A stretch of 62,274 nucleotides of DNA, taken from an uncultured Oscillospiraceae bacterium (GTDB taxonomy: Bacteria; Bacillota; Clostridia; Oscillospirales; Oscillospiraceae). The DNA is taken from positions 1-62,274 of the forward strand of contig CALXDP010000012.1 in assembly GCA_944387095.1 (NCBI GenBank), read 5' to 3'. The notes under the pieces were generated by a model. It ran no database searches and was not told the origin of the DNA. It saw only the letters and a list, made by a program, of their open reading frames with translations. Shown piece by piece: positions 40,187-61,375 of this stretch. The position numbers and the translations under genes are program-made. Position 1 is the first letter of the stretch; every line of letters starts with the position of its first letter.

Positions 40187-41041
40187 TTACACATAATCGT
40201 AGAATCCATGACCTACCTGCCGGCCGATCCGGCCGCGCTTCACCAAGTCCTCATAGATATCATACATATCGGGCTTTACTCCCGTTTTTTCATACTGGGC
40301 CTTCATCATGTCGAAGGACAAGTTGATGCCAGTCAGATCGTTCAAGCGGAATGGCCCCATGGGGTAATGGAATCCCTCCTCCATGGCGGTATCCACGTCT
40401 TGGTAGGTACAGTAGCCATGCTCCACCAAGTATTTCGCCCGCTCCATCAGTCCGGCAAACAGATAGTTGCCCGCAAATCCATCAATTTCTTTTTTCTGCC
40501 AAATCGGCTTTTTCCCCACGCTTACGCAGAAATCATATGCAGCTTTGGCTGTTTCGTCACTGGTATGTGGGCCTTGCACAACCTCTACAAACCTCATCAC
40601 CAGTGCCGGATTATAAAAGTGCATATTACAGAGCCTGGAGGGGTTCTTGACGCAATCGGCAAATTTAGACGAAACCATAAAGCTCGAGTTGGTCGCCAGA
40701 ATTACATTTTCATCCACAATATCGCTAATCTGTTTGAAAAGATCCCGTTTGGCAGACTCAACCTCAACAATACATTCGATGACGCAATCCACCCCTTGAC
40801 ACGCTTTGGCCAGGTCAGTTTCTACGCGAAATAAACTTTTGGTCTTTGCCACCTGCTCTTCCGTGAGCTTATTTTTTGTAATGCGCTCGGCCAAGTACTC
40901 CTCAGCCCATTTCGCCACATCCTCACATACCGCGGGATCTAAATCATACACGACGGCGCCGTGCCCATAAATTGCTGCGTTCAGTGCTATCTGACGGCCC
41001 ATTCTGCCGCCCCCGACAACACAGATTTTGTCAATGGTCAT
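40187..41041 (-). CDS. 3-hydroxyacyl-CoA dehydrogenase (island paralogue)
   Basis: 284 residues. The NAD-binding GGGRMG is at 10-15 and the catalytic His is in MHFYNPALVMRFVEVVQGPHTSDE. It matches HBD-type enzymes acting on (S)-3-hydroxyacyl-CoA but differs from the core Hbd, so its chain length or substrate may differ. GGGAG precedes the start. It is the last gene of the left sigma-54 operon, 50 bases after the BKACE gene. Confidence 0.85.
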   Translation of the reverse strand: MTIDKICVVGGGRMGRQIALNAAIYGHGAVVYDLDPAVCEDVAKWAEEYLAERITKNKLTEEQVAKTKSLFRVETDLAKACQGVDCVIECIVEVESAKRDLFKQISDIVDENVILATNSSFMVSSKFADCVKNPSRLCNMHFYNPALVMRFVEVVQGPHTSDETAKAAYDFCVSVGKKPIWQKKEIDGFAGNYLFAGLMERAKYLVEHGYCTYQDVDTAMEEGFHYPMGPFRLNDLTGINLSFDMMKAQYEKTGVKPDMYDIYEDLVKRGRIGRQVGHGFYDYV

Positions 41042-41089
41042 GACAATGATCTCCCTTTCAAACTAAAATCAACCAGCCCGGTTTCAACC

Positions 41090-41950
41090 CTATGCTTTTT
41101 TATACTCTTTTAACGCATGCCGGGTAATGCCAAGCATCGCCCTTGCTTCGTCTGCGGTGGCCGGCTCACGCCCAACCATACGGGCAATGGAAGCGGCGCG
41201 CTCCACCAGCTGAACATTGGTCGCCTTGACCCCTCTGGTCAGATAGAGGTTATCTTCCAACCCCACGCGCAGGCCGTCTGCCCCAAGCGCCAAGCCCGCC
41301 AGCAGCATTGTCAGGTGTGCCTTGCCGATTCCGGTTACGCTCCAGGTACAGCCTTCCGGCAGTTTGCTGTGCAGGTACTGCAAGTTCTCTACCGTTCCGT
41401 CCATGGCGCCCAAAACACCTAAGACAAATTGAATGTGGCAGGGCGTTTTTAGTACACCTTTTTTGATGTAGGCCAGCGTATTGCCCAGCATACCGTAATC
41501 AAACACCTCGATCTCAGGCTTGATGTCTAATTCTTGGGTCAGCCTTCCGCACCGCTCCAAAAAGTCTGGGCTATTCTCAAAGATACCGCCTAGTCCCCAG
41601 TTAAAAGAACCGGAGTCATAGGAACACACTTCAGGGCGCAGCGCTTTCAGGTGCGCCAGGCGCAGCTGCGTGTCATAGGACCCTCCAGATGTGGTCAGGT
41701 TTACAATGATGTCCACCCCGGCCGCCTCCACGGACTCTTTGACAGCCTCAAACGCCTCTACAAAATAATTTGTATCCATGGTGGGCTTGCCATCCTTGTC
41801 ATGGACATGAATGTGAACCATGGAGGCGCCCGCTTTCGCCACCGCAACCGCTTCCGCTCCGATTTCTTCAGGCGTAATCGGAATGTGTTCAGACAAAGCT
41901 TTGGAACCTGCAGACCCTGTAATCGCCGCAGAAATAATCAGTTTTTTCAT
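41090..41950 (-). CDS. beta-keto acid cleavage enzyme (BKACE, DUF849)
   Basis: 286 residues, TIM barrel. The zinc ligands H46 and H48 lie in VHIHVHD; RVGLEDNLYL carries the later Glu. BKACE enzymes condense a beta-keto acid with acetyl-CoA to give acetoacetate and a shortened acyl-CoA. Known members act on 3-keto-5-aminohexanoate (lysine fermentation), 3-dehydrocarnitine and others. The neighbour is an L-carnitine-dehydrogenase-like gene and no lysine-pathway gene is present, so a carnitine-type substrate is the better guess. AGGTGATG stands before the ATG. Confidence 0.88.
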   Translation of the reverse strand: MKKLIISAAITGSAGSKALSEHIPITPEEIGAEAVAVAKAGASMVHIHVHDKDGKPTMDTNYFVEAFEAVKESVEAAGVDIIVNLTTSGGSYDTQLRLAHLKALRPEVCSYDSGSFNWGLGGIFENSPDFLERCGRLTQELDIKPEIEVFDYGMLGNTLAYIKKGVLKTPCHIQFVLGVLGAMDGTVENLQYLHSKLPEGCTWSVTGIGKAHLTMLLAGLALGADGLRVGLEDNLYLTRGVKATNVQLVERAASIARMVGREPATADEARAMLGITRHALKEYKKA

Positions 41951-41971
41951 ATCATCACCTATTCTCTGCTT

Positions 41972-42967
41972 CTAAGTCAGCTTGTGATATTTCAACAGCT
42001 CCAGCAGTCCTTTGTCGCGAAATTCCATCAAATCCCGGTTTGTGTAACCGCCTTCTTGCATCAGCCGGTCCACTTCCTCAGGCAGTTCCCCATTCATATA
42101 GGCGCGTGCTTCCGGTGGATATTCGGTCCAGTTGCATAATGTCTGCATTACTGTCTGCTTCTGTTCCTGGGTATCATTTGGGCCCCTTCCATACATGTGT
42201 CCACCGAACAGGCCGCGTATTCCCAGGTCTCCGCCGGTCAGTTGGTAAACCATGAATGGGCCAAGCAGGGCATAGCGCAGGCCAGGCCCGAAGGTAAAAG
42301 CGGTATCCAGGTCTTCTACACTGCACACACCGTTCATCAGCATGCTGATCGATTCCCGGCAAATTGTGTTCATCAAGCGGGTGCCAATATAACCAGGGCA
42401 CTCTTTTTTGAGCACCACCGGCTTCTTTCCCACGCTGACCAAAAAGTCCTTGAGGACATCCAGATAGTTCTGCTCTACCTTTTCGTCAATCACGATTTCC
42501 ACCAAAGGCAATAAATAAACCGGCAAATATGGATGCGCGCCAATCACCCTCTGCGGTCGTTTCGCATGCTGCGCAATTTCCCGAATCATAATGGCGGACG
42601 TGCTGGATGTGATGATCGCTTCATCTGGGCAAACCGCCTCGATGCTCGCCAGAATGCTTTGCTTGATGGCGAGATTTTCCGGCCCGTTTTCCAAGATGAA
42701 ATCTGCGTCACCCACAGCCTCCTCCAATTTCGTGGTATAAGTGGGAATCGACAGATAAAGCTCAAGTTGGGCTTCCCCGAAAACGCCGTTATCCTTCAAC
42801 CACTGAAGGCCTTCCGCAATGCGCTCCTTGGCCCGCTGCAGCGCCTGAGGCGAAGGATCATACAGGCAGATGTGCTCTATCCCGTGATACAAAAACTGGA
42901 TGGCCCACCCCGAGCCAATCAGCCCTGAGCCTACCAGCGCGACTTTTTTGTTTGAATAATTCCCCAT
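41972..42967 (-). CDS. L-carnitine dehydrogenase-like 3-hydroxyacid dehydrogenase
   Basis: About 331 residues of the 3-hydroxyacyl-CoA dehydrogenase family. The Rossmann motif is GSGLIGSG (13-20). The segments GAHPYLPVYLLPLVEIV and FGPGLRYALLGPFMVYQLTGGD match the L-carnitine dehydrogenase / lambda-crystallin branch rather than true acyl-CoA enzymes. That branch oxidises free beta-hydroxy acids with NAD. The product would be a beta-keto acid, the substrate of the adjacent BKACE. ATG 42967 has GGGAG 7 bases upstream. Actual substrate not shown. Confidence 0.75.
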   Translation of the reverse strand: MGNYSNKKVALVGSGLIGSGWAIQFLYHGIEHICLYDPSPQALQRAKERIAEGLQWLKDNGVFGEAQLELYLSIPTYTTKLEEAVGDADFILENGPENLAIKQSILASIEAVCPDEAIITSSTSAIMIREIAQHAKRPQRVIGAHPYLPVYLLPLVEIVIDEKVEQNYLDVLKDFLVSVGKKPVVLKKECPGYIGTRLMNTICRESISMLMNGVCSVEDLDTAFTFGPGLRYALLGPFMVYQLTGGDLGIRGLFGGHMYGRGPNDTQEQKQTVMQTLCNWTEYPPEARAYMNGELPEEVDRLMQEGGYTNRDLMEFRDKGLLELLKYHKLT

Positions 42968-42987
42968 GGCCATTCTCCCATCGGCTC

Positions 42988-43695
42988 TTAAATGCCAAGA
43001 TAAGTTTTTTGCAAGTCGGCGTTGTTTCTCATTTCCTCGCCGGTTCCGCTCATGGCATTTTCGCCAGACTCAATCACATAGATTCGGCTTGCCACTTCCA
43101 ACGAGAAGGACACATTTTGCTCAACCAGCAAAATCGTGACGCCCTGCCGGCTAATATTTTGGATCGTTTCAAAAATACCTTCAACTATAATGGGCGCCAA
43201 ACCCAACGATGGCTCGTCCAACATCAGCAGCTTGGGATTGGACATCAGCCCTCTGGCAATGGCAACCATCTGCTGCTCACCGCCGGACAGGGTTCCCGCC
43301 TGCTGTTTCCGGCGTTCAGCCAATTTGGGAAACATCGCATAGCAGCGCTCCATATTTTCCTTGCGTTTCATACGATTATTCTTGAGGAAGGAGCCTGCGA
43401 TGAGGTTTTCTTCAATCGTAAGATACGGGAACAGTCTGCGGCCTTCCGGGACCTGAATCACACCCCTCTTTACCCGATCATAGATGGGCATCTGAGAGAT
43501 GTCTTCCCCGTTAAAGGATATGCTGCCTTTGCTTTGGATCAATTGCCCGGAAACCGTTTTCAGCGTAGTTGTCTTACCGGCACCATTGCTGCCCAGCAGC
43601 GCAACAATCTCGCCTTCATTCACATGAAAGGAAATGCCATGCAAGGCCTGAAAATCGCCGTAACTTACATAGATATTATCAACGTTAAGAAGCAT
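42988..43695 (-). CDS. livF: branched-chain-type ABC transporter ATPase LivF
   Basis: 235 residues. Walker A GSNGAGKTT, signature LSGGEQQM, Walker B LLMLDEPSLGLAP. LivF pairs with LivG beneath the permeases LivH and LivM. It overlaps livG by 11 bases. Members of this importer class take amino acids, but also urea, amides and aromatic or hydroxylated acids, so the family name does not fix the cargo. Confidence 0.9.
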   Translation of the reverse strand: MLLNVDNIYVSYGDFQALHGISFHVNEGEIVALLGSNGAGKTTTLKTVSGQLIQSKGSISFNGEDISQMPIYDRVKRGVIQVPEGRRLFPYLTIEENLIAGSFLKNNRMKRKENMERCYAMFPKLAERRKQQAGTLSGGEQQMVAIARGLMSNPKLLMLDEPSLGLAPIIVEGIFETIQNISRQGVTILLVEQNVSFSLEVASRIYVIESGENAMSGTGEEMRNNADLQKTYLGI

Positions 43696-44419
43696 AATGT
43701 CTCTCCCCTATGTAAGATTTTATCACCTCAGGGTGTTCCATTACTTTCTGCGGCGTATCCTCGGCAATCAAACACCCCTGATTCAGGACATAGGCGCGGT
43801 CAGCCAGTGTCATAATTACTTTCATGATATGTTCAATGATAATGATGGAAATCCCCGTTTCCTTAATCTTTTGCATGGTCTCCAGCAGTTCCACCCGCTC
43901 CCCCGGATTCAGGCCGGCCATCACCTCGTCCAGCAGCAGAACCTTTGGCTCTGTGGCCAGCGCGCGGGCAATTTCCATGCGTTTGAGCTGAATCAACGTC
44001 AAAGAAGCTCCTTTTGTATTCTTCAGATGGCTGATCCCCAACATATCGATGATGCCTTCCGCAACCTCGCGGGCATCAGCCACTCTTGGATGGCGCATCA
44101 AGGCGCCGGCCAGTACGTTTTCCAGCAGTGTCAGGGTGGTAAACGGCTGTACGATCTGGTAGGTACGGCCAATCCCCATTTTGCAAATCTCGTGGGCTTT
44201 TTTCTTTTGAATCTCAACGCCATCAAATGTAATCGTACCGCTGGTCGGCTTCAACACGCCAGAGATCATATTGAACAGTGTGGTTTTGCCCGCGCCATTG
44301 GCCCCGATCAAGCCCAGAGTTTCCCCCCGGTTGAGATGAATGGATACGTCATCCACGGCTTTCAGCCCACCAAATCGCTTGGTCAAATGGTCTACCACAA
44401 TGATGCGCTCTTCGCTCAT
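43685..44419 (-). CDS. livG: branched-chain-type ABC transporter ATPase LivG
   Basis: 244 residues. Walker A GANGAGKTT, a degenerate signature (ASLTLIQLKRMEIARAL instead of LSGGQ), Walker B VLLLDEVMAGL. The weak signature is common in LivG. GGAGGT precedes the ATG. It overlaps livM by four bases. Confidence 0.9.
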   Translation of the reverse strand: MSEERIIVVDHLTKRFGGLKAVDDVSIHLNRGETLGLIGANGAGKTTLFNMISGVLKPTSGTITFDGVEIQKKKAHEICKMGIGRTYQIVQPFTTLTLLENVLAGALMRHPRVADAREVAEGIIDMLGISHLKNTKGASLTLIQLKRMEIARALATEPKVLLLDEVMAGLNPGERVELLETMQKIKETGISIIIIEHIMKVIMTLADRAYVLNQGCLIAEDTPQKVMEHPEVIKSYIGERHYAS

Positions 44420-45450
44420 TGCACACTTACCTCCTTCGTCTCAGATTTTTTCTTCCCGAGACTCCCCTTGATCTTGTTGATCAGCATCTGGCCAAGCTGA
44501 TACAGGCCTCCAGGGGCAAAGCGAACAATCAAAATCAGGGCCACGCCATAGAACGCAGATGCCAGGGGCGCAATATCCGACCCCAGTTGAACCCGAAGCG
44601 TTTCATTGATAATCCCGAGAACAAGCGCGCCGAAAACAGGCCCCCACAAGGTCCCGGAACCACCAATCACGCAGTAGATCATGATTTCCAGGGACAGATC
44701 ATACCCAAAAACATCGTAGGGGGAAACATTCAGCAGAAAATGGACGTAGACGGCACCGCCCAATGCCAGGCAAAATGCAGAGATGCACTGCGCCATCATT
44801 TTATATTTTGGAACGTTTATGCCAATCGTAGAGGCCGCCCCTTGATTGGTTTTGATCGCCGATAAATAGTATCCCATTTTACTGGTACGGATTACGTTGG
44901 AAACAACCAAAATCAGAACCAGCATAACCAAAATGACGTAGTAGAATCCTTCTTTGCCAAATTGCATATCCTGCCACCGGCCAGTATAGGGAATCATGAT
45001 CCCCATGCCTCCGTTGGTCTCCATGCCGAAGATACTGTTGAAGCCCAGGATGATATAGCGCACAATGTGCAGGAAGGCAACAGTGGCCAGAGAAAAATAA
45101 GTCCCCCGAAGCTTGAAGCATGGTTTGGAGATGATGAAGGCAAACATCACGGAAATTACCCCGCCCAGCACCATGCCAATCCACGGGGATCCAAAGCCCT
45201 CTTGGTGAAACAGCACCGCAACATAGGCTCCGATGCCGATGTATACGCCATTTCCCAGCGCAAATTGGCCGGCGTAACCGCCAATGATGTTCCAGGCGCT
45301 GGACCAGTAGCAGTAAATCAGCACGGTAATGGCAATTTGGATAAAATAAGGCTGGGTGACGATCTGCGGAAACAGAAAGGCCAATACCAACAGCGCAAGA
45401 ACGAGAATATGCTTTGGCGCAATCTTGTCTTTCAATAATGTTTTACTCAT
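44416..45450 (-). CDS. livM: branched-chain-type ABC transporter permease LivM
   Basis: 344 residues with about nine or ten membrane helices and the LivM-type loop PCFKLRGTYFSLATVAF. It forms the membrane channel with LivH. ATG 45450 has AGGGGGT upstream. It overlaps livG (ATGA junction). Confidence 0.9.
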   Translation of the reverse strand: MSKTLLKDKIAPKHILVLALLVLAFLFPQIVTQPYFIQIAITVLIYCYWSSAWNIIGGYAGQFALGNGVYIGIGAYVAVLFHQEGFGSPWIGMVLGGVISVMFAFIISKPCFKLRGTYFSLATVAFLHIVRYIILGFNSIFGMETNGGMGIMIPYTGRWQDMQFGKEGFYYVILVMLVLILVVSNVIRTSKMGYYLSAIKTNQGAASTIGINVPKYKMMAQCISAFCLALGGAVYVHFLLNVSPYDVFGYDLSLEIMIYCVIGGSGTLWGPVFGALVLGIINETLRVQLGSDIAPLASAFYGVALILIVRFAPGGLYQLGQMLINKIKGSLGKKKSETKEVSVQ

Positions 45451-45454
45451 GCTA

Positions 45455-46333
45455 TTACCCCCTATCCTTGGACAGCAACCCATTCGGCTTTAGGAACAGC
45501 ACCAGGGCGAAAATAGCAAATACAATGATCTGTGCATACAAGGAAGAGAATAGGAACCCGCCAAAGCTCTCCACCAGGCCGACAATGATGCCGCCGAGCA
45601 AGGCCCCGGGAACGGATCCCTTTCCGCCCAGCACCACGATGGTCAGCGTTTTGAATCCAAAGGTGGCCCCGGTAGACGGACTTACTGCATAGATTGGGGA
45701 CATCAGTCCACCAGCTACACCAAGGCATGCAAATCCGATCGCCTGCGCCAGGCAGTACAGCAATTTATTGTTCATGCCCATCAACTGGGCGACCTCTCTG
45801 TCCTGGGAAGTGGCCCGCAGCGCCCGCCCCCATTCAGCTTTCTGCAAAAACAGCTGAATTCCAAAGGTCAGTCCCAGCGCCACCACAAACGCGATCAGCT
45901 TCGGCGTGGAGATAAACATCGAGGCAATATTGATGCTTCTCCCAGTCAGGGGGGTTGTCACAGACTGGGAATTGGACGTGAACAGGAACGTGGCCAGATT
46001 GGACAGCACAAAGGACATACCTGCAGTTGTGAGCAGCACGCTCAAAGGCTCGCGCTCTTTCGCGCGGATCACCAGGGGGTTCAGCAGAAATTTTTGCACG
46101 AAAAAGCCGATGACGAACATGACCGGTCCAACGACAAGAATGCTCACCAGCGGATGGATTCCGGTTCCCTGAATCAAGAAAATGGCCATGTACAGCGCCA
46201 TCATCAGCAGATCTCCCTGCGCCCAGTTGAACAATCTCATTACGCCAAAAGACAGGCTGAGGCCAACTGCAACACAGGCATAAATACCCCCTGTCAACAG
46301 TCCGTCTATTAAGGCCTGAAAAAATATCGCCAT
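45455..46333 (-). CDS. livH: branched-chain-type ABC transporter permease LivH
   Basis: 292 residues with about eight helices, opening MAIFFQALIDGLLTGGIYA and with RALRATSQDREVAQLMGM, the LivH coupling-loop signature. AGAGGTG precedes ATG 46333. It lies four bases from livM. It is separated from livJ by a hairpin at 46378-46436. Confidence 0.9.
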   Translation of the reverse strand: MAIFFQALIDGLLTGGIYACVAVGLSLSFGVMRLFNWAQGDLLMMALYMAIFLIQGTGIHPLVSILVVGPVMFVIGFFVQKFLLNPLVIRAKEREPLSVLLTTAGMSFVLSNLATFLFTSNSQSVTTPLTGRSINIASMFISTPKLIAFVVALGLTFGIQLFLQKAEWGRALRATSQDREVAQLMGMNNKLLYCLAQAIGFACLGVAGGLMSPIYAVSPSTGATFGFKTLTIVVLGGKGSVPGALLGGIIVGLVESFGGFLFSSLYAQIIVFAIFALVLFLKPNGLLSKDRG

Positions 46334-46377
46334 AATCAATTCACCTCTGTTCAAGCATATGGGTTTGGTAAAGAAAC

Positions 46378-46436
46378 GCAAAAGGGCATTCCATGTCCCT
46401 TCATCCCAGTACTCACAACACAGAATGCCCTTTTGC
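46378..46436 (-). terminator. inter-gene hairpin between livJ and livH
   Basis: A 14-bp inverted repeat (GCAAAAGGGCATTC with its complement) with a 31-base loop and a CTTTTGC end. Such hairpins let the binding protein be made in excess over the permeases by partial termination and mRNA protection. Confidence 0.6.
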
Positions 46437-46478: not shown

Positions 46479-47801
46479 TCAGCGTTCATCCCAGCTGGGG
46501 ATGGGCCAGGTAAACTCATACTCCTGGCTGGCCAGCTCCTCCGGCCAAACCACACGGTACTCACCGTCACGGATGCAAGCCCAGGGCACCGGGGTGTCAA
46601 AGTTCTGATTGTACACCATCACACCGGCGGCGCCTTCGCGGTCCTCGAACTTGACGGTCTTGCTCCCGGAGAGGAGGGTGGCATAGTGCTCGCCGGAGAT
46701 GTCCGTCTCCGCCATCGCCTGGGCAATGGCTTCCCGGTCGGCGCTGCCTGCCCGCTCCAGGGCATCCCAGACGCACCAGAAGCCCAGCCAGGCACAGGAC
46801 GCGGACTCATCAAAGTCATAGCCAAATTCCTCATAGTAGGCGTCCATGACCGTTTGGGCAAAATCCGTGTCCCAGGCGGTCTCCCACATGGAGGGGAACC
46901 ACATCGAGGTGGAGAACACATAGTCCGCCGCGTCGCCGGCCTGCTCGATGAAGTCGGCCTGCAGGAAGCCGCCGCCATTGCCAAAGATGGGGAGCGCCAC
47001 GTCATATTCCTTCATCTGGCGCACGAACAGGATGGCGTCGCTCATGTTCATGGACGGCTGCACCCACTCGATCTCGGGATCGTTTTTCAGCTGCAGGATC
47101 TGGCTGGAAAAATCGGCGGAACCGGCCTCAATGGGAATGCCTACGATCTCCTCATATCCGTTTTCCTCCATATTGGCCAATGCCGTCTCATAGCTCTCAC
47201 GCCCATAGTCCGCGGAGTCGTATACATAAGCAAACTTCTTCATGGGCTGGATCACTTCCCGCATCCATTCCGTCCGCTGGTTGGAGAACAGCGTGTTGGT
47301 GGCGTTGCACCCATTGGCGTGGAAGACATAGTCATTGGGTTGGGAGAAGGCCTCGTCGCCCACCGCATTCGTAGCGATGGCGGGCACCTGATTGGCGATA
47401 CAGTACTGAGACAGAGTGTTGGTCACGGCCGTGTTGTAGAAGCCAAACATGACGCTGACATTCTCCACGTTGACCATGCGCTCAAACTCAGTCAAGCCGA
47501 CCTGGCTGTCCCCCTTGGAGTCGCCAACCACCAACTCGATCTTCGCACCATCCATGGATTGGATCCCCCCGAGTTCATTATTGATATAATCGGTAATCCA
47601 TTCCACGGCCCACAGCGCCGAGTTGCCGGCTGTCGCTGTACTGCCGGATAGCGGGTACAGCACACCAATCTTGATCGTTTCCCCGCCTTCCTGACCGCTA
47701 GACTGGTTGGGCTCTTGGGATTGCTCACCGCTGGGTCCGCCGCAAGCAACCAGGGACAGGCACATCACGATTGCAAGGATAGTTGCGATTAGTTTTTTCA
47801 T
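46479..47801 (-). CDS. livJ: branched-chain-type ABC transporter substrate-binding lipoprotein LivJ
   Basis: 440 residues. Signal peptide with lipobox LVAC (Cys20), then a Ser/Gln/Glu linker, then a two-lobe binding fold of the PBP type 1 family (IKIGVLYPLSG, VNVENVSVMFG, FAYVYDSADYGRESYE). It captures the cargo outside the membrane. AAGGAGG precedes the start. Its GC content looks like the core genome (41 of 60 bases in one sampled line) and higher than livH, livM or livG. It may have been swapped in separately. Cargo unknown. Confidence 0.88.
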   Translation of the reverse strand: MKKLIATILAIVMCLSLVACGGPSGEQSQEPNQSSGQEGGETIKIGVLYPLSGSTATAGNSALWAVEWITDYINNELGGIQSMDGAKIELVVGDSKGDSQVGLTEFERMVNVENVSVMFGFYNTAVTNTLSQYCIANQVPAIATNAVGDEAFSQPNDYVFHANGCNATNTLFSNQRTEWMREVIQPMKKFAYVYDSADYGRESYETALANMEENGYEEIVGIPIEAGSADFSSQILQLKNDPEIEWVQPSMNMSDAILFVRQMKEYDVALPIFGNGGGFLQADFIEQAGDAADYVFSTSMWFPSMWETAWDTDFAQTVMDAYYEEFGYDFDESASCAWLGFWCVWDALERAGSADREAIAQAMAETDISGEHYATLLSGSKTVKFEDREGAAGVMVYNQNFDTPVPWACIRDGEYRVVWPEELASQEYEFTWPIPSWDER

Positions 47802-50420: not shown

Positions 50421-50431
50421 GGTTACACCCC

Positions 50432-51574: not shown

Positions 51575-51608
51575 ACGAAAGCCGTCGCCAATTTGCGACG
51601 GCTTTCGT
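51575..51608. promoter_or_regulatory. 14-bp perfect dyad between the divergent sigma-54 promoters
   Basis: ACGAAAGCCGTCGC, loop CAATTT, then its exact complement. No T run follows on either strand, so a terminator is unlikely. It lies 77 bases above the left and 153 bases above the right promoter, a normal distance for an enhancer site of a sigma-54 activator. Binding by the regulator at 59915-61375 is inferred. Confidence 0.55.
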
Positions 51609-51760: not shown

Positions 51761-51776
51761 TGGCATAAATATTGCA
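51761..51776 (+). promoter_or_regulatory. sigma-54 promoter of the right (thiolase) operon
   Basis: TGGCATAAATATTGCA: GG and GC exactly 10 bases apart, one base off the TGGCAC-N5-TTGCA consensus. Transcription should start near 51788, about 70 bases before the first thiolase. Confidence 0.78.
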
Positions 51777-53059: not shown

Positions 53060-53073
53060 TGGAGGGTGTTGAT

Positions 53074-54279
53074 ATGAAATCTCGTGAGGTAGTTATTGTT
53101 GATGGCGCCAGATCTGCGTTTGGCAGAATGGGGGGCGGTCTTCGCAAGCTGGCTGGTACTGACATCGCCGCGTTTGTCGTGGATGGTCTGTTGGAAAAAA
53201 CAAACATTTTAGAGCGGGGCATGGTTGACAGCCTTCTGGCCGGATGCGCCCTTTCTGACGCCCAATCCCGCGCGATGGCACGTTACATTGTTTTAAAATC
53301 AAATCTTCCCCTGGAATGCTCCGGTACTTTTGTGGAAATGCAGTGCGGCTCTGCCATCACCAGTTTGAACCATGCCGCGTGGAAAATTAAAATGGGGATG
53401 TCTGACATTGCTCTGGTTGGCGGATTTGAGTCATACAGCACCACCCCGGCCGCCATGTCCACAAGCAATGAGCCCTACAAAGGAATCGCCCCCGCTCCGC
53501 TTCAGCGGCACATTTCTCCCTTCCCCGAAAAGGATATCGACATGATTTCCGTCAGCGACAAAATGGCCTCCATTTGGGGGATCTCCCGGGAAGAGGCGGA
53601 CGCTTTCGCCGTCCGCAGTCAAGAGCGCCTTGACAAAGCGTATCGCACCGGCTTGATTGGCCCTGAAATCATCCCCTACACCATTCCCGCCACCCGCAAG
53701 ACGCCACAGGTGATTGTGGACAGGGATGAACAGCCCCGGCCTGACACCACAATGGAAGGATTGTCCAAACTCGCGCCTGTCAATCCTGGCGGCGTTACCA
53801 CCGCCGGGAACGCCTCTGGCCGCAATGATGGCGCCGCCTTTTTGCTGGTTATGACCGCGGAGAAAGCGCAAGAGCTTGGCTATACCCCTTATGTTCGTTG
53901 GGTTGGCTGCTCTCACCACGGTTGCAGGGAAGACATTATGGGCATCGGCCCCGCTTACTCCAATCTCGAGGCCCTTAAAAATGCCGGCCTGAAAGTAAGC
54001 GATCTTAATGTGTTTGAGTGTAACGAGGCGTTTGCCGCGCAAAATCTATCTGTCATAAAAGAGATGGAGACACAAAGCGGGCTTAAAATCGATCAGGAAA
54101 AATGGAATCCCAATGGCGGCGCCATCGCAATCGGGCATCCCAACGGCGCGTCCGGGGCCCGTATTACATGGTTTGCGATGAAGCAGCTGGAAAAGACAGG
54201 GGGAAGATATGGCCTTGTCTCCTCTTGCTGCGGCGGCGGCCACGGCACCACTGCTATTTTGGAAAACCTCCGGCGCTGA
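53074..54279 (+). CDS. thiolase (acetyl-CoA acyltransferase), second of a tandem pair
   Basis: 401 residues with the same three catalytic motifs (EMQCGSAITSL, AIAIGHPNGASGAR, SSCCGGGHGTT). Long blocks are identical to the first thiolase. It may differ in chain length or form a mixed tetramer with it. GGAGGG precedes ATG 53074, 15 bases after the first thiolase stops. Confidence 0.9.
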   Translation: MKSREVVIVDGARSAFGRMGGGLRKLAGTDIAAFVVDGLLEKTNILERGMVDSLLAGCALSDAQSRAMARYIVLKSNLPLECSGTFVEMQCGSAITSLNHAAWKIKMGMSDIALVGGFESYSTTPAAMSTSNEPYKGIAPAPLQRHISPFPEKDIDMISVSDKMASIWGISREEADAFAVRSQERLDKAYRTGLIGPEIIPYTIPATRKTPQVIVDRDEQPRPDTTMEGLSKLAPVNPGGVTTAGNASGRNDGAAFLLVMTAEKAQELGYTPYVRWVGCSHHGCREDIMGIGPAYSNLEALKNAGLKVSDLNVFECNEAFAAQNLSVIKEMETQSGLKIDQEKWNPNGGAIAIGHPNGASGARITWFAMKQLEKTGGRYGLVSSCCGGGHGTTAILENLRR

Positions 54280-54365: not shown

Positions 54366-55043
54366 ATGCCCATGGCACGCAGCAAGGTCATGCGCGCGTC
54401 AGAAGCCGTTTCCCATATTCGGAACGGCGACAAAGTCATGGTGGGTGGTTTTGGTCTGCGGGGCTGTCCCTTTGAGCTGGTGGACGCATTGATCGAGACC
54501 GGCCAACGGGAGCTTACCATCATTTCGGTAGGAGGCGATTCCCCCGGCATCGGCTTGGGCGCCCTTCTGCGCAGCGGACAGATCAAAAAAATGATTGGGT
54601 CCTTCTATAACGCCAACCGCGAGGTGGCTATGGCCCGCAATTCCGGGCAGATCGAGGTGGTCTTAATGCCCATGGGGAATCTGGCGGAAGCGCTCCGGGC
54701 CGGCGGCATGGGAATTCCCGCTTTTTATGTCCCAGTTGGGGCCGGTACCGACCTGGCCGTTGGGAAAGAAGTCCGCGTCTTTGATGGGCGGCCTCATATT
54801 TTGGTGGACGCTCTGCATGCCGATGTATCCCTGATCCGCGCCAAGGCCTCTGACGCTCTGGGCAATCTGGTATACAGCAAAACCGCCAGAAACTTCAACC
54901 CCGCGATGGCCATGGCGGCTGACTTTACCATCGCTGTCGTAGATGAAATTGTAGAACCCGGCGCCCTCTCTCCTGATGAGATTATCACCTCTCACATCTA
55001 TGTGGACGCACTGGTCCTTGCGGGAGGATGCCGCCATGATTAA
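54366..55043 (+). CDS. 3-oxoacid CoA-transferase subunit A
   Basis: 225 residues. GDKVMVGGFGLRGCPFELV is the N-terminal signature of family I CoA-transferase A subunits (AtoD, ScoA). It works with subunit B to move CoA between acids, for example from acetyl- or butyryl-CoA to acetoacetate. AAGGA precedes ATG 54366. It overlaps subunit B by eight bases. Confidence 0.9.
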   Translation: MPMARSKVMRASEAVSHIRNGDKVMVGGFGLRGCPFELVDALIETGQRELTIISVGGDSPGIGLGALLRSGQIKKMIGSFYNANREVAMARNSGQIEVVLMPMGNLAEALRAGGMGIPAFYVPVGAGTDLAVGKEVRVFDGRPHILVDALHADVSLIRAKASDALGNLVYSKTARNFNPAMAMAADFTIAVVDEIVEPGALSPDEIITSHIYVDALVLAGGCRHD

Positions 55044-55719
55044 ATTACCAAAAGACCAATTGCAGGCCCTCATTGCAAAAAATGCCGCCGCCCTGTTGGA
55101 TGAGCTCTGCTCAGACCACTCATTTGTGGTCAACCTGGGGGTTGGAATCCCTCTTCTTGCTGTCAATTACCTCCATCGCGACAATATTTATATCCATACA
55201 GAAAACGGCATGGTGGGGGTTGGCCCGCTTGCCTATGGCGATCAGGTCCACCCGGATTTGGTCAATGCCGGACGGCAGCCTGTGACGGAGACCATAGGTT
55301 GTAGCTACACCGACGCCAGCGAGTCCTTCGGCATGATCCGCGGCAGGCATATCCACGCAGCGGTGTTGGGTGCATTTCAGGTCGACCAACAGGCCAATAT
55401 TGCAAACTGGATTATCCCGGGCAGCACACTTCTCGGCGTAGGCGGGGCCATGGATCTGGTTGCGGGCGCGCAGACCGTCATCATCGCCATGACCCATTGC
55501 AATGCGGGAAAGCCGAAACTGGTGCACCAATGTTCCTTACCCATCACCGCCTATCACGAAGCGGACTATGTCGTGACAGAATTTGGCCTGTTCCATTTTG
55601 TGGACGGCACCCCCATCCTGGAAAAAATCCATCCGGAGCTTTCTGTCCAGGACGTGCGAAATGCCACCGAATTTGATTTCTCCGTGGCCGATCAACTGTC
55701 CCACACGCTTCTGCTTTAA
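55036..55719 (+). CDS. 3-oxoacid CoA-transferase subunit B
   Basis: 227 residues. The catalytic Glu lies in THTENGMVGVG-like IHTENGMVGVG; VNLGVGIP and GGAMDLVAGA are further AtoA/ScoB motifs. With no acyl-CoA ligase in the island, this pair is the only visible way to activate the imported acid or the acetoacetate made by BKACE. GGGAGG precedes ATG 55036. Confidence 0.9.
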   Translation: MIKLPKDQLQALIAKNAAALLDELCSDHSFVVNLGVGIPLLAVNYLHRDNIYIHTENGMVGVGPLAYGDQVHPDLVNAGRQPVTETIGCSYTDASESFGMIRGRHIHAAVLGAFQVDQQANIANWIIPGSTLLGVGGAMDLVAGAQTVIIAMTHCNAGKPKLVHQCSLPITAYHEADYVVTEFGLFHFVDGTPILEKIHPELSVQDVRNATEFDFSVADQLSHTLLL

Positions 55720-55758
55720 GCGTATTATACCGTGCAGATGAATCAGGAGGGAGCCGTA

Positions 55759-56571
55759 ATGAAGAAAGAATACTACGAGAATCGGGTCTGTATTGTCACA
55801 GGCGCTTCCACCGGCATTGGCTTTGCCCTCAGCAAGGCGCTCTTGGAGATGGGCGCCACCGTTTACATGGTGGCACGCACAAAAGCAAAATTAGCCGAAG
55901 CGCAGGAGGCACTTGGCGTTTATGGAGACAGGGCGAGAATCCATGCGGCAGACGTTTCTGACAACGAGTCCGTCCGTCAGCTGATCGATAATGTGTTCGG
56001 CCGGGAGGGCAGGATCGATTTCCTGTTTAACAATGCCGGGATTGGCTCCGGCGGGCTGACGGAACACGCCTCGCTCAAAGCATGGAAGCGGGTGATTGAC
56101 ACCGATCTTTGGGGTGTTATCTATGCTGTCCACGCCATTTTACCCATCATGTTGGCGCAGGGCAGCGGCCATATCGTCAACACCTCCTCCATCGGCGGCC
56201 TGTTCCCCCTGCCCTACCAGACCCTCTACTGCACCGCAAAATACGGCGTAGTAGGCTTGAGCGAAACCCTGCGCCATGAGATGCTTCCCCGGGGCATCGC
56301 TGTGTCCGTCGTCTGCCCCGGGGCAGTGGCCAGCGAAATTTTCCACAAAGGCGGCCAGAAAACCCCAGCCCATGCTATTTCACCAGAGCAGGCCGCAATC
56401 GAGACGCTGGAAGGCGTCGCCCGGAAGGAAGGTATCATTGTGGTGGGCGACGATGCCAGACACCGTTATGACCTGCTTCTCCACGATCCCGAGGGCGCTG
56501 AACAATATCAGAAAGCGTATTCTCAGAAACGCTATGAGACCTTTGTTCTGGGCGTCAAGCACGACTGGTAA
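55759..56571 (+). CDS. short-chain dehydrogenase/reductase
   Basis: 270 residues. Cofactor motif TGASTGIG, NNAG motif, catalytic Ser in NTSSIGG and YCTAK. It would oxidise or reduce a hydroxy group, probably (R)-3-hydroxyacyl-CoA given the MaoC-type hydratase nearby. AGGAGGG precedes ATG 55759. Substrate not known. Confidence 0.85.
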   Translation: MKKEYYENRVCIVTGASTGIGFALSKALLEMGATVYMVARTKAKLAEAQEALGVYGDRARIHAADVSDNESVRQLIDNVFGREGRIDFLFNNAGIGSGGLTEHASLKAWKRVIDTDLWGVIYAVHAILPIMLAQGSGHIVNTSSIGGLFPLPYQTLYCTAKYGVVGLSETLRHEMLPRGIAVSVVCPGAVASEIFHKGGQKTPAHAISPEQAAIETLEGVARKEGIIVVGDDARHRYDLLLHDPEGAEQYQKAYSQKRYETFVLGVKHDW

Positions 56572-56611
56572 CATGAAACCGAAACTATTATGAATAGGAG
56601 GAATGCCCACT

Positions 56612-57751
56612 ATGATCAACGATTACGACTTTATGTTGACACAAGACCAATTGGATCTGAGGAATCTTGTCCAAGATTTTGCGCAAAACGTGGTCAAGCC
56701 CGTCTGCCGGGTAGCTGAACGCGACGCCATCGTCCCGGAAGAGCAGGTGAAGCAGGCTATGGACATGGGCCTGCATCTGATGACACTGCCTGAAGAATAC
56801 GGCGGCCTCGGCCTTGATCATTTGACAAACGCCATCATCCGCGAGGAACTGTCCAAAGGGGATGCTGGTTTTGCCTCCCGTGTTACGGGCTTTGGCTTTG
56901 CCCCTGTCCAGATCGCGGGAAATGAGTGGCAGAAGCAGTGGGTGGCAGATCTGTTCCTGAACGGCGGAATCATGGCCTTTGGCCTGACAGAGAGTACCGC
57001 CGGCTCCAACGCCGCCGCCATGACCACAACCGCCCGGCGAGACGGCGACGATTACATCATTAACGGCGGCAAAACCTTTATCACCAATGGTGACTGCGCC
57101 GACGTCATCACCATCTTCGCCGTCACCGATAAAGATAAGGGCTCCAAAGGTATCACCGCCTTTCTCCTGCCCAAAGATACCCCGGGCTTCACAGTGGGCG
57201 AGCACGAGGATAAGATGGGAATTCGCTGTGTACACACCAATTCTCTCTTTTTTGATGACATGCGCCTGTCTGCCAAGTACCGCCTGGGTGAAGAGGGCGA
57301 GGGCTTTAAGATCGCCATGAAGATTCTGGATGACTCCCGTCCTTGCACCGCCGCCTCCGCCGTCGGGATTGCCCAGGCCGCGTTGGATGAGGCCCTGGCC
57401 TACTCCAAGGTCCGGGAGGTGTTCGGCAAGCCGATTTGCGAAAACCAGGCCATCGCCTTTATGCTGGCCGACATGGAGATCCAGATTCAGGCGGCCCGCC
57501 GTCTGGTTTGGGGCAACTGTCTTGCCGCTGACGCCGGCGTGATCAACAAGAGGCTGGTCGCCATCGCCAAATGCTTTGCCAGTGACACCGCTATGAAGGT
57601 TACCACGGATGCCGTTCAGATCTTTGGCGGCAACGGGTACAGCAAGGAATACCCTGTGGAAAAGCTGATGCGCGACGCCAAGATCTATCAAATTTTTGAG
57701 GGGACCAACCAGATCCAGCGCACCATCATTTCCCGAGACCTACTGCGTTGA
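56612..57751 (+). CDS. acyl-CoA dehydrogenase (island)
   Basis: 379 residues. Catalytic Glu in IFEGTNQIQRTI; FGLTEST and FGGNGYSKEYPVEK are FAD contacts. It forms the 2-enoyl-CoA and passes electrons to the island Etf pair. It differs from core Bcd, so a longer or modified chain is likely. AGGAGG stands 10 bases before ATG 56612. Confidence 0.9.
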   Translation: MINDYDFMLTQDQLDLRNLVQDFAQNVVKPVCRVAERDAIVPEEQVKQAMDMGLHLMTLPEEYGGLGLDHLTNAIIREELSKGDAGFASRVTGFGFAPVQIAGNEWQKQWVADLFLNGGIMAFGLTESTAGSNAAAMTTTARRDGDDYIINGGKTFITNGDCADVITIFAVTDKDKGSKGITAFLLPKDTPGFTVGEHEDKMGIRCVHTNSLFFDDMRLSAKYRLGEEGEGFKIAMKILDDSRPCTAASAVGIAQAALDEALAYSKVREVFGKPICENQAIAFMLADMEIQIQAARRLVWGNCLAADAGVINKRLVAIAKCFASDTAMKVTTDAVQIFGGNGYSKEYPVEKLMRDAKIYQIFEGTNQIQRTIISRDLLR

Positions 57752-57826: not shown

Positions 57827-58804
57827 ATGTACTTGGAACTGATTGCTCCGTACATCGGGACCAGTAGCGAACTGGTTCCCCAGAAGGTAGAGGCAGGGGC
57901 CATTCGCAGATTTGCCATTGCCTCCTTGGAGACAAACCCAATTTATTACGATGAGGAATATGCAAAAACGACCCCATACGGCACCATCATCGCACCTCCT
58001 AATTTTGCCCGCACCTTTTTCATCCCTCCGGTATGCCCTGTGGAGGGGGAAATTCTCCCCATTCAGGGCCGGATCCACGGCGCTCAGAAGTTTGAGTATC
58101 TAAAGCCTATGAAGGCGGGTGACACCGTCTACTTCCGATCCACACTCCTCTCCGCCAGAGAGACACAGGGAAGTCAAGGCTATTCCCTTTTTGTCACCTT
58201 TGAGCACGCCGTTCTGGACGAGCAGGGTGATGCTTACAGCCTGGGTTACAGCACCTGCGTCTACCGGGAGTCTTTGCTAAAAAGTACCGATCCCAACCGC
58301 TTCAACTCCTGGTACCCACACATCCCCGATGACCGCTGGCTGTCTGGATTGGATGTCTGTGATCCTTCCACCGTCGCCGTTGGTGATACCATTGGTCCTA
58401 TTCAATTCCCCGAGATCACCCGTACCTGGATCGCGCAGTGGGCCGGCGCCAGCGGCGACTTCAACCCCATTCATCTGGATGATTCCGCCGCCAAGGCCTC
58501 CGGCATGGACGGCTGCATCACGCACGGCATGCTCAGTGCCACGGTAGTCTCCAGGGTGTTTAGCTACTGGCTGAGCGAACATGGGCAGCTCGTCCGCTCC
58601 TGTACAAAGTTTACTGCTCCTGTAAAACCAGGCGACCGGTTGACCATGACCGCAACCGTCCTGTCCGTCACACCCGAGGAAGAGCGCATGATAATAGAGT
58701 GGGAATACATCCTCCGCAACGCCTCCCAGGCAACTGTGCTTTCCGGCAGCTTAACCGGCATATTACCACATACCAATCAATCCGATCTTCAGGTATCACC
58801 ATAG
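57827..58804 (+). CDS. double hot-dog MaoC-type enoyl-CoA hydratase
   Basis: 325 residues with two hot-dog domains. The N-domain belongs to MaoC_dehydrat_N; the C-domain has the (R)-hydratase catalytic motif AGASGDFNPIHLDD and THGML. It would hydrate 2-enoyl-CoA to the (R)-3-hydroxy form, the opposite stereochemistry to the island crotonase. GAGGTG precedes the start. Such enzymes are common in aromatic and steroid side-chain pathways. Confidence 0.8.
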   Translation: MYLELIAPYIGTSSELVPQKVEAGAIRRFAIASLETNPIYYDEEYAKTTPYGTIIAPPNFARTFFIPPVCPVEGEILPIQGRIHGAQKFEYLKPMKAGDTVYFRSTLLSARETQGSQGYSLFVTFEHAVLDEQGDAYSLGYSTCVYRESLLKSTDPNRFNSWYPHIPDDRWLSGLDVCDPSTVAVGDTIGPIQFPEITRTWIAQWAGASGDFNPIHLDDSAAKASGMDGCITHGMLSATVVSRVFSYWLSEHGQLVRSCTKFTAPVKPGDRLTMTATVLSVTPEEERMIIEWEYILRNASQATVLSGSLTGILPHTNQSDLQVSP

Positions 58805-58831: not shown

Positions 58832-59779
58832 ATGGCAGCAGCAACTCTGGCGATTGAACTTCTCCTGATGAATATTATCGGTATCTTTATCCGCAAATCC
58901 GGCGTCACAAACAAAGACTTTACCACCAAGCTAACTGCTGTTGTCATGGATTTCTGTATCCCCTGTCTGATTTTTTATTCCATCAGCAACGCCACAGAGT
59001 TTTCTATGGATTCCCTGTCCAGTTGTTTGATCGCAGCTGCGTTGGGAACCATCGCCCTTTTTATTTCCCTGTTGGTGGGTCAATGCTTCTATCTCATCAG
59101 CAAAAAAAGCAATTCCGGCCGTATCACTCGCTATGGCCTGACCTTTTGCCATTTTTCCTTCATGGGCATTCCGGTAATCGAAGCCCTGTTTGGAGAATTG
59201 GGTACCTTTTACTACGCTTTTTTCCAATTCTCCATCCGTATCGCTTATTACGCTCTGTCTGAGCGTTTGATGACTCCTCTTGGCATGAAAAATGAAAAAA
59301 AGTCCATCGGAGTATTGCTGAAGTCTATCTTTTTCACACCTCAGATGTTCGCTGTCATACTCGGCCTGCTCTTCTGGATTACCGGCTGGACGCTGCCAGG
59401 TCCGATCAACAACTGTGTATACAGCTTGAATTCCATTTCCTCCCCGCTGGCTCTGCTGCTATGCGGCATGGTAATTGCCGAGTTTGACTTCAAACGGCTG
59501 CTGCGGCTGGAATACTTGAAACTGCCTTTGTTGCGGACAGTTTTAATGCCCGCCCTATTTTTTGGCATATCCCGCCTGCTCCTGCTGCTCAACATTGATG
59601 AAATCCTGTGTCAAATTTTTGTCATCTATGCCGCCCTCCCTGTGGCCTCCCTGATGTCTGTTTACGCGCTGCGGTACGATCCCGACCCAGAGAACCATTT
59701 GATGGCTGCCGGAACCAGCGCAATTTCTGTACTTCTTTCCGCTGTTACCATTCCGATCTGGTACATGCTGATAAGCTGA
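58832..59779 (+). CDS. AEC (auxin efflux carrier) family transporter
   Basis: 315 residues with about ten helices; GLTFCHFSFMGIPVIEALFG and the closing LMAAGTSAISVLLSAVTIPIW are typical of this family. Bacterial members move dicarboxylates or malonate, mostly by unknown mechanism. Here it could export an end product or import the acid. GAGGTG precedes the start. GC is lower than in the genes before it. Confidence 0.8.
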   Translation: MAAATLAIELLLMNIIGIFIRKSGVTNKDFTTKLTAVVMDFCIPCLIFYSISNATEFSMDSLSSCLIAAALGTIALFISLLVGQCFYLISKKSNSGRITRYGLTFCHFSFMGIPVIEALFGELGTFYYAFFQFSIRIAYYALSERLMTPLGMKNEKKSIGVLLKSIFFTPQMFAVILGLLFWITGWTLPGPINNCVYSLNSISSPLALLLCGMVIAEFDFKRLLRLEYLKLPLLRTVLMPALFFGISRLLLLLNIDEILCQIFVIYAALPVASLMSVYALRYDPDPENHLMAAGTSAISVLLSAVTIPIWYMLIS

Positions 59780-59914
59780 ATCACCTTGGTTGACAGCGCA
59801 GGCCGCTTCCCATCCAAAATTACCCTGGAACCTGTTTCCACTATACAAAATTATGGTTTCCGTGATATACTGCTTATGTCTCCTTTATTCTATACCACCG
59901 ATTTGGAAAACGAA

Positions 59915-61375
59915 ATGGACGTTACAAATATGAAAGAATATTGGAATCCAGATGGATTAACGCGAAGCGATTTAATTGAAATCATCCGCTCCATTCCAGA
60001 TAGCGTTATTGTGTACGACTCTGACGGCCGCCGCGTCATATGCAGCAACCGCGTCCTGAAAAGTCATGTCACAGAGTGTGAAACGCTTTCCAATGGAACG
60101 CCGGAGATACGCGCACAGATCCTGCAAAGCAACGAGGAAATGGCCCAGGCCATCGCCTCTGTGATAGAAACCGGAAAGCCCTTATCTTTCATTCTCACCG
60201 CCCCGCATTTTATCTATCCTGTTTTATATACGATGCGGCCGATTTTTGACGAAGCGGGTAAGGTCAAATTTGTGATCGCGGATGGCCGTTCTCAGGCAGT
60301 TGTGAATAAGTTCAGTGAAGAATACATCAAGCTTGAGCAGGACCTGCAGGCCAACCGCAGCTCTCTTCAACTGTTGAATCAACTTCATCTGAAAAATTTC
60401 AATATCGTAGCGGAAAGTCCTGCGATGCAGAAAATTTTGAAAATCATCCACCGGATCGCACCGACAGACAGTACCATTACCATCACCGGCGAAAGCGGCA
60501 CAGGGAAAGAAGTATTGGCAACCGCGATTCACGAAAGCAGCAGGCGTCGGGAAAACACCTTCGTTCCAGTGAATTGTTCCGCCGTCCCTCACGATCTTAT
60601 GGAATCTGAATTCTTCGGGTATGCGGCCGGGGCTTTTACCGGCGCAAAAGCCACCGGGCGGATCGGCCTCTTTGAGCTTGCCAACAATGGTACTATTTTC
60701 CTGGATGAGATCGGTGAATTGCCTCTTACGCTGCAACCCAAACTATTGCGTGTGATCGAGAGCGGTGAAATCCGGCCAGTCGGTTCCAACCAGACAAAAA
60801 AGATCAATGTCCGCATCATTGCAGCGACCAACCGAGACCTGAAAGAAATGGTGCGAAAAAATGAGTTCCGTGAAGATCTGTTTTATCGTCTTCAAATTAT
60901 TCCCATTCGCCTCCCGCCTTTGCGGGAGCGCCAAGAGGACATCATTCCTTTGGCTCAACATTTTCTAAATATTTACAACAAAAAGTATCAACGCAACTGC
61001 TACTTAACGGATACCGCCAAGAGTGAACTCTTGCGATACCATTGGCCTGGCAATATTCGAGAGTTGCGAAACCTGATTGAGCGGCTGGTCATCGTATCTG
61101 AAACAGATGCCATTTTGCCAATCCAAATTCTATCCCACAAAACATCCTTCCTTTCCACCGCCGCTGCGGAACCTGGCTTCTCCATCGCAGAGGGAGAAGC
61201 CTATTCCGACGCTCTTTCCAAATTTGAAAAAGCCTATATCGAACACATGATTAGCATCTGTGGGGGAAGCGTGACCAAGGCCGCTGAACGTATGGGTATC
61301 CATAAAAGCGTCGTTTATCGGAAAATGAAGAAATACAAAGAGACGGAGCCGCCGACAGGCGAAACCAATGCGTAA
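59915..61375 (+). CDS. sigma-54-dependent activator, PAS-AAA-Fis
   Basis: About 486 residues from ATG 59915. A PAS domain (15-117) senses a signal. The AAA domain has Walker A GESGTGKE (192-199), the sigma-54 loop GAFTGA (239-244) and Walker B GTIFLDEIGE. A Fis helix-turn-helix (453-475) binds DNA. It should activate the two sigma-54 promoters at 51483 and 51761. The true start is unsure: TTG 59786 and ATG 59876 are in frame, but only 59915 has a weak ribosome site (GGAAAA). No response-regulator receiver domain is present. Confidence 0.88.
   Translation: MDVTNMKEYWNPDGLTRSDLIEIIRSIPDSVIVYDSDGRRVICSNRVLKSHVTECETLSNGTPEIRAQILQSNEEMAQAIASVIETGKPLSFILTAPHFIYPVLYTMRPIFDEAGKVKFVIADGRSQAVVNKFSEEYIKLEQDLQANRSSLQLLNQLHLKNFNIVAESPAMQKILKIIHRIAPTDSTITITGESGTGKEVLATAIHESSRRRENTFVPVNCSAVPHDLMESEFFGYAAGAFTGAKATGRIGLFELANNGTIFLDEIGELPLTLQPKLLRVIESGEIRPVGSNQTKKINVRIIAATNRDLKEMVRKNEFREDLFYRLQIIPIRLPPLRERQEDIIPLAQHFLNIYNKKYQRNCYLTDTAKSELLRYHWPGNIRELRNLIERLVIVSETDAILPIQILSHKTSFLSTAAAEPGFSIAEGEAYSDALSKFEKAYIEHMISICGGSVTKAAERMGIHKSVVYRKMKKYKETEPPTGETNA

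Follow-up and report, generated by a model that had tools for sequence, protein, structure and literature searches.

A predicted sigma-54-controlled BKACE island for an uncharged 3-hydroxy acid in an uncultured Oscillospiraceae bacterium

What does a bacterium gain from a gene set that brings together a Liv-type importer, a beta-keto acid cleavage enzyme (BKACE), a CoA-transferase, the enzyme families of beta-oxidation and a sigma-54 activator? The question is raised by an island at positions 40187-61375 of contig CALXDP010000012.1 from an uncultured Oscillospiraceae bacterium, of which a stretch of 62,274 nucleotides (hereafter the window) was analysed. We consider it probable (at roughly 0.6) that the island encodes a horizontally acquired, sigma-54-controlled BKACE pathway, which would convert an uncharged 3-hydroxy acid to acetyl-CoA and/or butyrate-type acids. 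An earlier note on this DNA had read the same genes as a complete beta-oxidation set with a BKACE branch; that reading is weighed below.

The genes named in the earlier note were all recovered where it had placed them. There are 21 open genes (12 on the minus and 9 on the plus strand), every one with a Pfam match above cut-off, and they are arranged as two divergent operons that share an intergenic region, plus the activator gene. The minus operon reads etfB, etfA (the subunits of an electron-transfer flavoprotein, ETF), crotonase, hotdog thioesterase, Liv binding protein, livHMGF, a 333-aa 3HCDH-family dehydrogenase, BKACE and a 284-aa 3HCDH protein; the plus operon reads two thiolases, CtfA, CtfB, a short-chain dehydrogenase (SDR), an acyl-CoA dehydrogenase (ACAD), a FAS1_DH/MaoC didomain protein (by its family predicted to be (R)-specific), an AEC transporter and the activator. 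Gene spacing is operon-like, the widest gap within an operon being 298 bases, between the genes for the binding protein and the thioesterase. Among the 21 genes, Pfam recognised no AMP-binding acyl-CoA ligase, in line with the earlier note, and there was no integrase or transposase and no quinone-linked ETF acceptor; Rfam (at the gathering threshold) and a tRNA scan gave no matches in the window. NCBIfam profiles were run on 20 of the 21 proteins (all except LivH) and, among the rows listed, only TIGR01930 (both thiolases) and TIGR02429 (CtfA) passed their cut-offs, so that exact functions can not be assigned from profiles. For instance, the top model for the crotonase, short-chain-enoyl-CoA hydratase, scores 258 bits against a cut-off of 394, and the 284-aa dehydrogenase, which passes no cut-off among the rows listed, scores best with PRK08293 (202 bits, cut-off 312).

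The clues regarding the substrate come from the BKACE and the 333-aa dehydrogenase. The BKACE matches PF05853 with 305 bits (cut-off 24.8) and, aligned to 2y7d, keeps the zinc ligands (HxH and Glu) and the catalytic Arg. It scores 270 bits with NF052387, below the cut-off of 382, as do all six of the other BKACEs scanned. In a tree of 34 rows (to which only 8 of the named loci L075-L111 were admitted) the island protein groups with Bacillota BKACEs (support 99/94), apart from a Pseudomonas/Hyphomicrobiales clade (100/100). In the case of the 333-aa dehydrogenase, a tree of 71 rows (12 of the same loci admitted) places it with carnitine-dehydrogenase-like proteins and not with HBD. Both island proteins, together with their partners in the same-genus genome G035, form long branches of their own among the Bacillota homologs. 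At the position of Glu14 in Kce, the cleavage enzyme of lysine fermentation, the island BKACE has Ala, and the phloroglucinol enzyme has Trp; Glu14 binds the 5-amino group of the Kce substrate, according to the accessible part of PMC10470551. This Ala makes a cationic substrate unlikely, and triacetate as well; since no acidic residue stands there, the substrate is probably uncharged at its far end, where the Ala may leave room for a larger neutral group. Carnitine, 3-keto-5-aminohexanoate and triacetate are probably not the substrate. The dehydrogenase, by our own mapping of positions, lacks the Asn that contacts CoA, and this Asn is also missing in the free-acid enzyme of Clostridium scatologenes (as far as the accessible part of PMC10470551 describes it). 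The importer adds no further clue: 59 plasmid records matched the binding protein, and the three annotated neighbourhoods among them (29.6-31.0% identity) are too distant to indicate a substrate.

In the pathway that we propose, the organic acid would enter through the Liv-type ABC importer, to which the AEC carrier may add its share, and the 333-aa dehydrogenase would oxidise the free 3-hydroxy acid (R-CHOH-CH2-COO-) to a beta-keto acid. The BKACE would then combine this acid with acetyl-CoA to give R-CO-CoA and acetoacetate; CtfAB would transfer CoA to the acetoacetate and a thiolase would cleave the acetoacetyl-CoA. Meanwhile R-CO-CoA could be processed by the crotonase or MaoC protein, the 284-aa dehydrogenase or SDR, ACAD-EtfAB and thiolase, after which the thioesterase would release the product acid. 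No ATP-dependent ligase would be needed, because the BKACE would take its CoA from acetyl-CoA, and CtfAB and thiolase would recover the acetoacetate.

The features of a sigma-54 regulon are all present, i.e. a -24/-12 match, an AAA+ activator and, in the genome, a gene with the sigma-54 DNA-binding domain; together with the fact that two promoter matches face the two operons, this supports, at the level of sequence, the sigma-54 control suggested in the earlier note. The minus-strand intergenic site is the sole exact match to TGGCACN5TTGCW in the window, and with up to two mismatches allowed this pattern shows no excess there (32 found, 39.9 expected). The stricter form TGGCAYN5TTGCA has three matches in the window, where 0.11 would be expected, and none of 100 shuffles reaches three; the statistic is a favourable one, since the pattern was composed after both intergenic sites had been seen. 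Two of these three sites lie in the divergent intergenic region (51498-51483, minus; 51761-51776, plus), each aimed into its own operon, and an inverted repeat with 17-base arms sits between them as a candidate activator site. From the promoter matches and the activator, the 21 genes are apparently switched jointly. The third strict site, at 22080-22095 (+), is identical in G035 (L027 3586) and has no obvious plus-strand gene downstream. A -24/-12 match and a gene for a sigma-54 activator are present at all three BKACE loci of the genome. At the other two (L024 9548-13381 and L025 8814-16913) the BKACE has the triacetate acetoacetate-lyase motif TGAW and the activator contains a PAS domain, and L025 also has a PF04199 cyclase, a symporter, a CoA-transferase and a thiolase; both possibly serve phloroglucinol-type degradation.

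The composition of the island sets it apart from its surroundings, as had been claimed: GC is 0.528 in 40187-61375, as opposed to 0.613 for positions 1-40100 and 0.603 for the final 0.9 kb, with 1-kb values of 0.466-0.561 inside and 0.549-0.679 left of 40 kb, ranges that touch at their extremes. GC at third codon positions is 0.53-0.71 in 20 of the 21 genes and 0.76 in the binding-protein gene; two genes of the left flank have 0.77 and 0.85. Between the island and the flanking methyltransferase gene lies a long GC-rich hairpin (40108-40152), a likely terminator. The methyltransferase gene was found (E <=1e-40) in 5 of 37 same-genus genomes, the own genome G000 included (G000, G003, G020, G035 and G036), and in G003, G036 and G020 it adjoins an NFACT/RqcH-type gene (family confirmed for G003), so that the flanks, described earlier as housekeeping genes, are adjacent in three relatives. 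G035 carries the island's left part at the same locus (DNA 93% identical), up to the end of the contig inside LivM; there too the island part is low in GC (0.501 versus 0.61 in its flank), i.e. the relative that shares the locus does not have core-like composition. MaoC and NFACT genes were not found in the G035 assembly, which is 87% complete. In G000 itself contig C44 ends with the NFACT/RqcH gene and, after it, the beginning of a putative XRE-type regulator gene (judged by eye), which is apparently split between this contig end (L134 5769-5953) and window positions 61679-62274; Pfam gave no match for the second part. Because the window's right end and the C44 end have the stretch ACCGGGG in common, and the last window bases are met again where contig C20 begins (95% over 59 bases), a repeated mobile element inside the regulator gene is suggested. 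The island has thus apparently been inserted between the methyltransferase and NFACT/RqcH genes, where we infer the right-hand placement. A search for a donor by way of MaoC matched 16 plasmid records, of which the 10 listed show 26.8-34.4% identity. Comparison with G035 gives dN/dS values of 0.013-0.089 for five island genes, which points to purifying selection and hence to functional genes, and of 0.066 and 0.120 for two genes of the flank; the dS of LivG is unusually low (0.066).

The gene content, the promoter matches, the insertion site, the purifying selection on five genes and the BKACE catalytic residues are direct observations, whereas each reaction, direction and substrate class of the proposed pathway is inferred. 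Several points weigh against this pathway. The predicted free-acid role rests on the grouping of the dehydrogenase and its missing CoA-contact Asn; moreover, the branch of this protein is long, the support for its clade is only 84/93, and at the position linked to stereospecificity it has Thr instead of Asn. For a minimal BKACE pathway the hydratases, the further dehydrogenases and the thiolases, two of each, are more than is needed. Finally, the other 16 kb of the island is matched in G035 only by short stretches of 65-78% identity.

The direction of the acyl-CoA chemistry is the point at which the first alternative has to be weighed, namely that CtfAB would activate a medium-chain or aryl-substituted acid for oxidative breakdown by beta-oxidation, with 3-hydroxy acids entering by a side branch of 333-aa dehydrogenase and BKACE. 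The part of the earlier claim that stands is that the four activities (ACAD, hydratase, 3-hydroxyacyl-CoA dehydrogenase and thiolase) are all represented by family, next to a CoA-transferase. The thiolases, furthermore, obtain better scores from 3-oxoadipyl-CoA/BktB-type models than from PhaA, the Ala in place of the phloroglucinol enzyme's Trp could admit a larger group, and the alphaproteobacterial loci L087, L103 and L107 and the Chloroflexota locus L079 combine dehydrogenase, BKACE, ACAD and crotonase. What finds no support in the form given is the oxidative direction that the claim implies. The best PDB alignments of EtfB are with ETFs of the bifurcating type, and Gly123 (A. fermentans numbering) is conserved within AIDGDTAQ, aligned to 4kpu_B, which we take to be the A. 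fermentans EtfB. The glycine criterion for calling bifurcating ETFs is that given in the accessible part of PMC12630350. Since this glycine is kept and a quinone-linked acceptor is lacking among the 21 genes, the ACAD and EtfAB may work reductively, in an electron-bifurcating, butyrate-type step. The closest relatives of EtfB that were found (71-73% identical) stand in G020 beside an acyl-CoA dehydrogenase and an FAD-linked oxidase (Pfam FAD_binding_4/FAD-oxidase_C, by our own reading of the lactate-dehydrogenase kind), and a butyrate-type operon (EtfA, EtfB, acyl-CoA dehydrogenase, HBD and crotonase; 16920-21880, minus) lies 18 kb from the island. Because of the EtfB type, these relatives and this operon, a reductive role appears at least as likely as beta-oxidation, and we regard the oxidative alternative as a whole as possible but rather unlikely.

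A second alternative, which we think distinctly improbable, is an oxygen analogue of lysine fermentation, in which a 3,5-dihydroxy or 5-hydroxy-3-oxo C6 acid would yield 3-hydroxybutyryl-CoA and acetoacetate, followed by dehydration, reduction by ACAD/EtfAB and release of butyrate via CtfAB. Its back end would equal that of lysine fermentation (as given in the accessible part of PMC3149608), the amino-binding Glu14 is lost, some BKACE-homolog activity on 5-hydroxy-beta-ketohexanoate is reported in the accessible part of PMC6365646, and either isomer of 3-hydroxybutyryl-CoA could be handled if the two hydratases have opposite stereospecificity; nevertheless, there is no known source of the C6 substrate, and the Liv importer, the thioesterase and the second thiolase would go unexplained. 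The degradation of L-carnitine or gamma-butyrobetaine (by carnitine dehydrogenase, dehydrocarnitine cleavage and a betainyl-CoA thioesterase) would fit the co-occurrence of dehydrogenase, BKACE and thioesterase and the ~40% identity over 246 aa to Pseudomonas enzymes, but is highly improbable, the dehydrogenase scoring 180 bits with PRK07066 (cut-off 414; Pseudomonas positive control L076, 658) and the BKACE standing outside the Pseudomonas/Hyphomicrobiales clade and lacking its Asp.

To return to an uncharged 3-hydroxy acid as substrate of a BKACE pathway, the most specific form of this proposal would be an undescribed gut-type fermentation in which the BKACE both cleaves and activates without ATP, a private bifurcating ACAD/ETF links the released acyl-CoA to the reduction of ferredoxin and everything belongs to one acquired sigma-54 regulon; we put this forward tentatively, as rather unlikely. 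By way of a BKACE, anaerobes can live on hydroxy acids and be spared the ATP cost of activation; if the proposal holds, an added substrate class would feed acetate or butyrate formation in Oscillospiraceae. The 333-aa dehydrogenase and the BKACE are a concrete enzyme pair to examine.

The earlier note had suggested searching relatives for co-occurrence of the genes. The parts are of familiar types and their combination was not met in the genomes sampled. Only the own genome was matched by MaoC (E 1e-40; 398 genomes of the phylum), the binding protein (E 1e-70; 394 of the order), the BKACE (E 1e-85; 391 of the class) and the 333-aa dehydrogenase (E 1e-90; 400 of the family); G035 must be absent from the class and family samples, as it has both of the latter genes and yet gave no match. 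Among 60 relatives the dehydrogenase exceeds 42% identity in G035 only, and its best match in the named species collection, among the matches listed, is 44%. From that collection, in which records very close to the own genome may be left out, the best 80 of at least 562 dehydrogenase relatives (L032-L111, up to ~10 kb on each side, many from Pseudomonas) were taken, and the whole island was not seen in these loci. A BKACE accompanies the carnitine-dehydrogenase-like protein in 56 of the 80, CtfA and CtfB do so in 14, and BKACE, CtfAB and thiolase occur together in 12. Strict uniqueness is further qualified by L079, L087, L103 and L107 (dehydrogenase, BKACE, ACAD and crotonase) and by L036, all with matches of 27-45% identity. 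L036, from the Firmicutes bacterium HGW-Firmicutes-12, is the nearest in content among the 80: it has, in the same direction, activator (40%), dehydrogenase (40%), BKACE (38%), CtfA/CtfB (41/45%), crotonase (30%), HBD (27%) and a partial thiolase (35%), but in its 20.9 kb ACAD, MaoC, EtfAB and thioesterase are unmatched and a single Liv-type ATPase is matched (29%). Flavonifractor-type clusters such as L062 share dehydrogenase (40%), BKACE (48%), CtfA (32%), CtfB (38%) and thiolase (34%), but Liv, ACAD, EtfAB and MaoC are unmatched in that stretch. Clusters of a carnitine-dehydrogenase-like enzyme, CtfAB, thiolase and BKACE occur in the Oscillospiraceae loci L029 (470-12012) and L062 (9854-17766), L029 having in addition two SDRs, a PTE-family hydrolase and a crotonase-family protein.

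Table 1. Features of the island, in window coordinates
Feature	Position	Strand	Evidence or remark
284-aa 3-hydroxyacyl-CoA dehydrogenase, HBD-like	40187..41041	-	Pfam 3HCDH_N/3HCDH; 96% identity in G035
BKACE, beta-keto acid cleavage enzyme	41090..41950	-	Pfam BKACE; alignment to 2y7d; tree; residue table
333-aa 3HCDH-family dehydrogenase, carnitine-dehydrogenase-like group, predicted free 3-hydroxy acid substrate	41972..42973	-	Pfam, NCBIfam, grouping
LivF-type ATPase	42988..43695	-	Pfam, NCBIfam
LivG-type ATPase	43685..44419	-	Pfam, NCBIfam
LivM-type permease, real start probably slightly internal	44416..45483	-	Pfam, NCBIfam
LivH-type permease, real start probably internal	45455..46381	-	Pfam
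Liv-type substrate-binding protein	46479..47801	-	Pfam Peripla_BP_6; best PDB 8wch, E 3.7e-35
Hotdog-fold thioesterase (4HBT)	48100..48591	-	Pfam
Crotonase / enoyl-CoA hydratase	48614..49396	-	Pfam ECH_1
EtfA	49416..50435	-	Pfam, NCBIfam
EtfB with bifurcation-type glycine, likely start 51235	50432..51274	-	Pfam; alignment
Sigma-54 promoter match TGGCACAGCCTTTGCA, facing etfB operon	51483..51498	-	Zero-mismatch TGGCACN5TTGCW
Inverted repeat with arms of 17 bases (94% complementary), candidate site for activator binding	51575..51608	.	Function inferred
Sigma-54 promoter match TGGCATAAATATTGCA, facing thiolase operon	51761..51776	+	One mismatch to TGGCACN5TTGCW
Thiolase 1, start inferred, scanned from 51794	51860..53059	+	Pfam, NCBIfam
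Thiolase 2, 67% identity with thiolase 1	53059..54279	+	Pfam, NCBIfam
CoA-transferase subunit A (CtfA)	54366..55043	+	TIGR02429 227 bits, cut-off 128.5
CoA-transferase subunit B (CtfB), start inferred, scanned from 54976	55036..55719	+	Pfam CoA_trans; TIGR02428 226 bits, cut-off 243.55
Short-chain dehydrogenase (SDR)	55732..56571	+	Pfam, NCBIfam
Acyl-CoA dehydrogenase (ACAD)	56603..57751	+	Pfam; best NCBIfam AcrC 372 bits, cut-off 640
FAS1_DH + MaoC didomain, predicted (R)-specific enoyl-CoA hydratase	57827..58804	+	Pfam, NCBIfam
AEC-family (Mem_trans) transporter	58832..59779	+	Pfam
Sigma-54 activator, AAA+ and Fis-type HTH	59786..61375	+	Pfam; best NCBIfam PrdR 384 bits, cut-off 795

The earlier note knew of no described system with this gene combination. 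As regards the full set this agrees with our search of the literature, which found none within a coverage that lies outside most subscription papers; the claim is too broad for the core of free 3-hydroxy-acid dehydrogenase, BKACE, CoA-transferase and thiolase, which is described for phloroglucinol in the accessible part of PMC10470551, while similar cores belong to the breakdown of lysine (PMC3149608) and of carnitine (PMC12482172), and for the partial likenesses in L036, L079, L087, L103 and L107. In phloroglucinol degradation by C. scatologenes (PGR-DPGC-TfD-TAL), a 3HCDH-family enzyme acting on a free 3-hydroxy acid feeds a BKACE, CoA-transferase and thiolase stand in the same cluster, and there is a link to butyrate fermentation, as far as the accessible part of PMC10470551 goes. 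The island shares this plan but has no PF04199 cyclase among its 21 genes, its dehydrogenase belongs to another group, it adds a Liv importer and an acyl-CoA set, and the Ala where Trp is expected rules out TAL as the identity of its BKACE. Lysine fermentation (Kam-Kdd-Kce-Kal-AtoDA, Bcd), as outlined in the accessible part of PMC3149608, has in common with it a BKACE-type cleavage, an acetoacetate CoA-transferase, a thiolase and an acyl-CoA dehydrogenase with ETF, but KamA, KamDE, Kdd and Kal are not recognised among the island genes, and Kce is ruled out by the missing Glu14. The carnitine catabolism of Pseudomonas (PMC12482172, in its accessible part) resembles the island in the dehydrogenase group, the BKACE and a possible thioesterase, but both key enzymes fail the subfamily tests, and the CoA-transferase, the acyl-CoA enzymes and the ETF are extra. 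Judged from its genes, the island appears to work like the BKACE modules for lysine, phloroglucinol and carnitine, yet it fails a defining feature of each.

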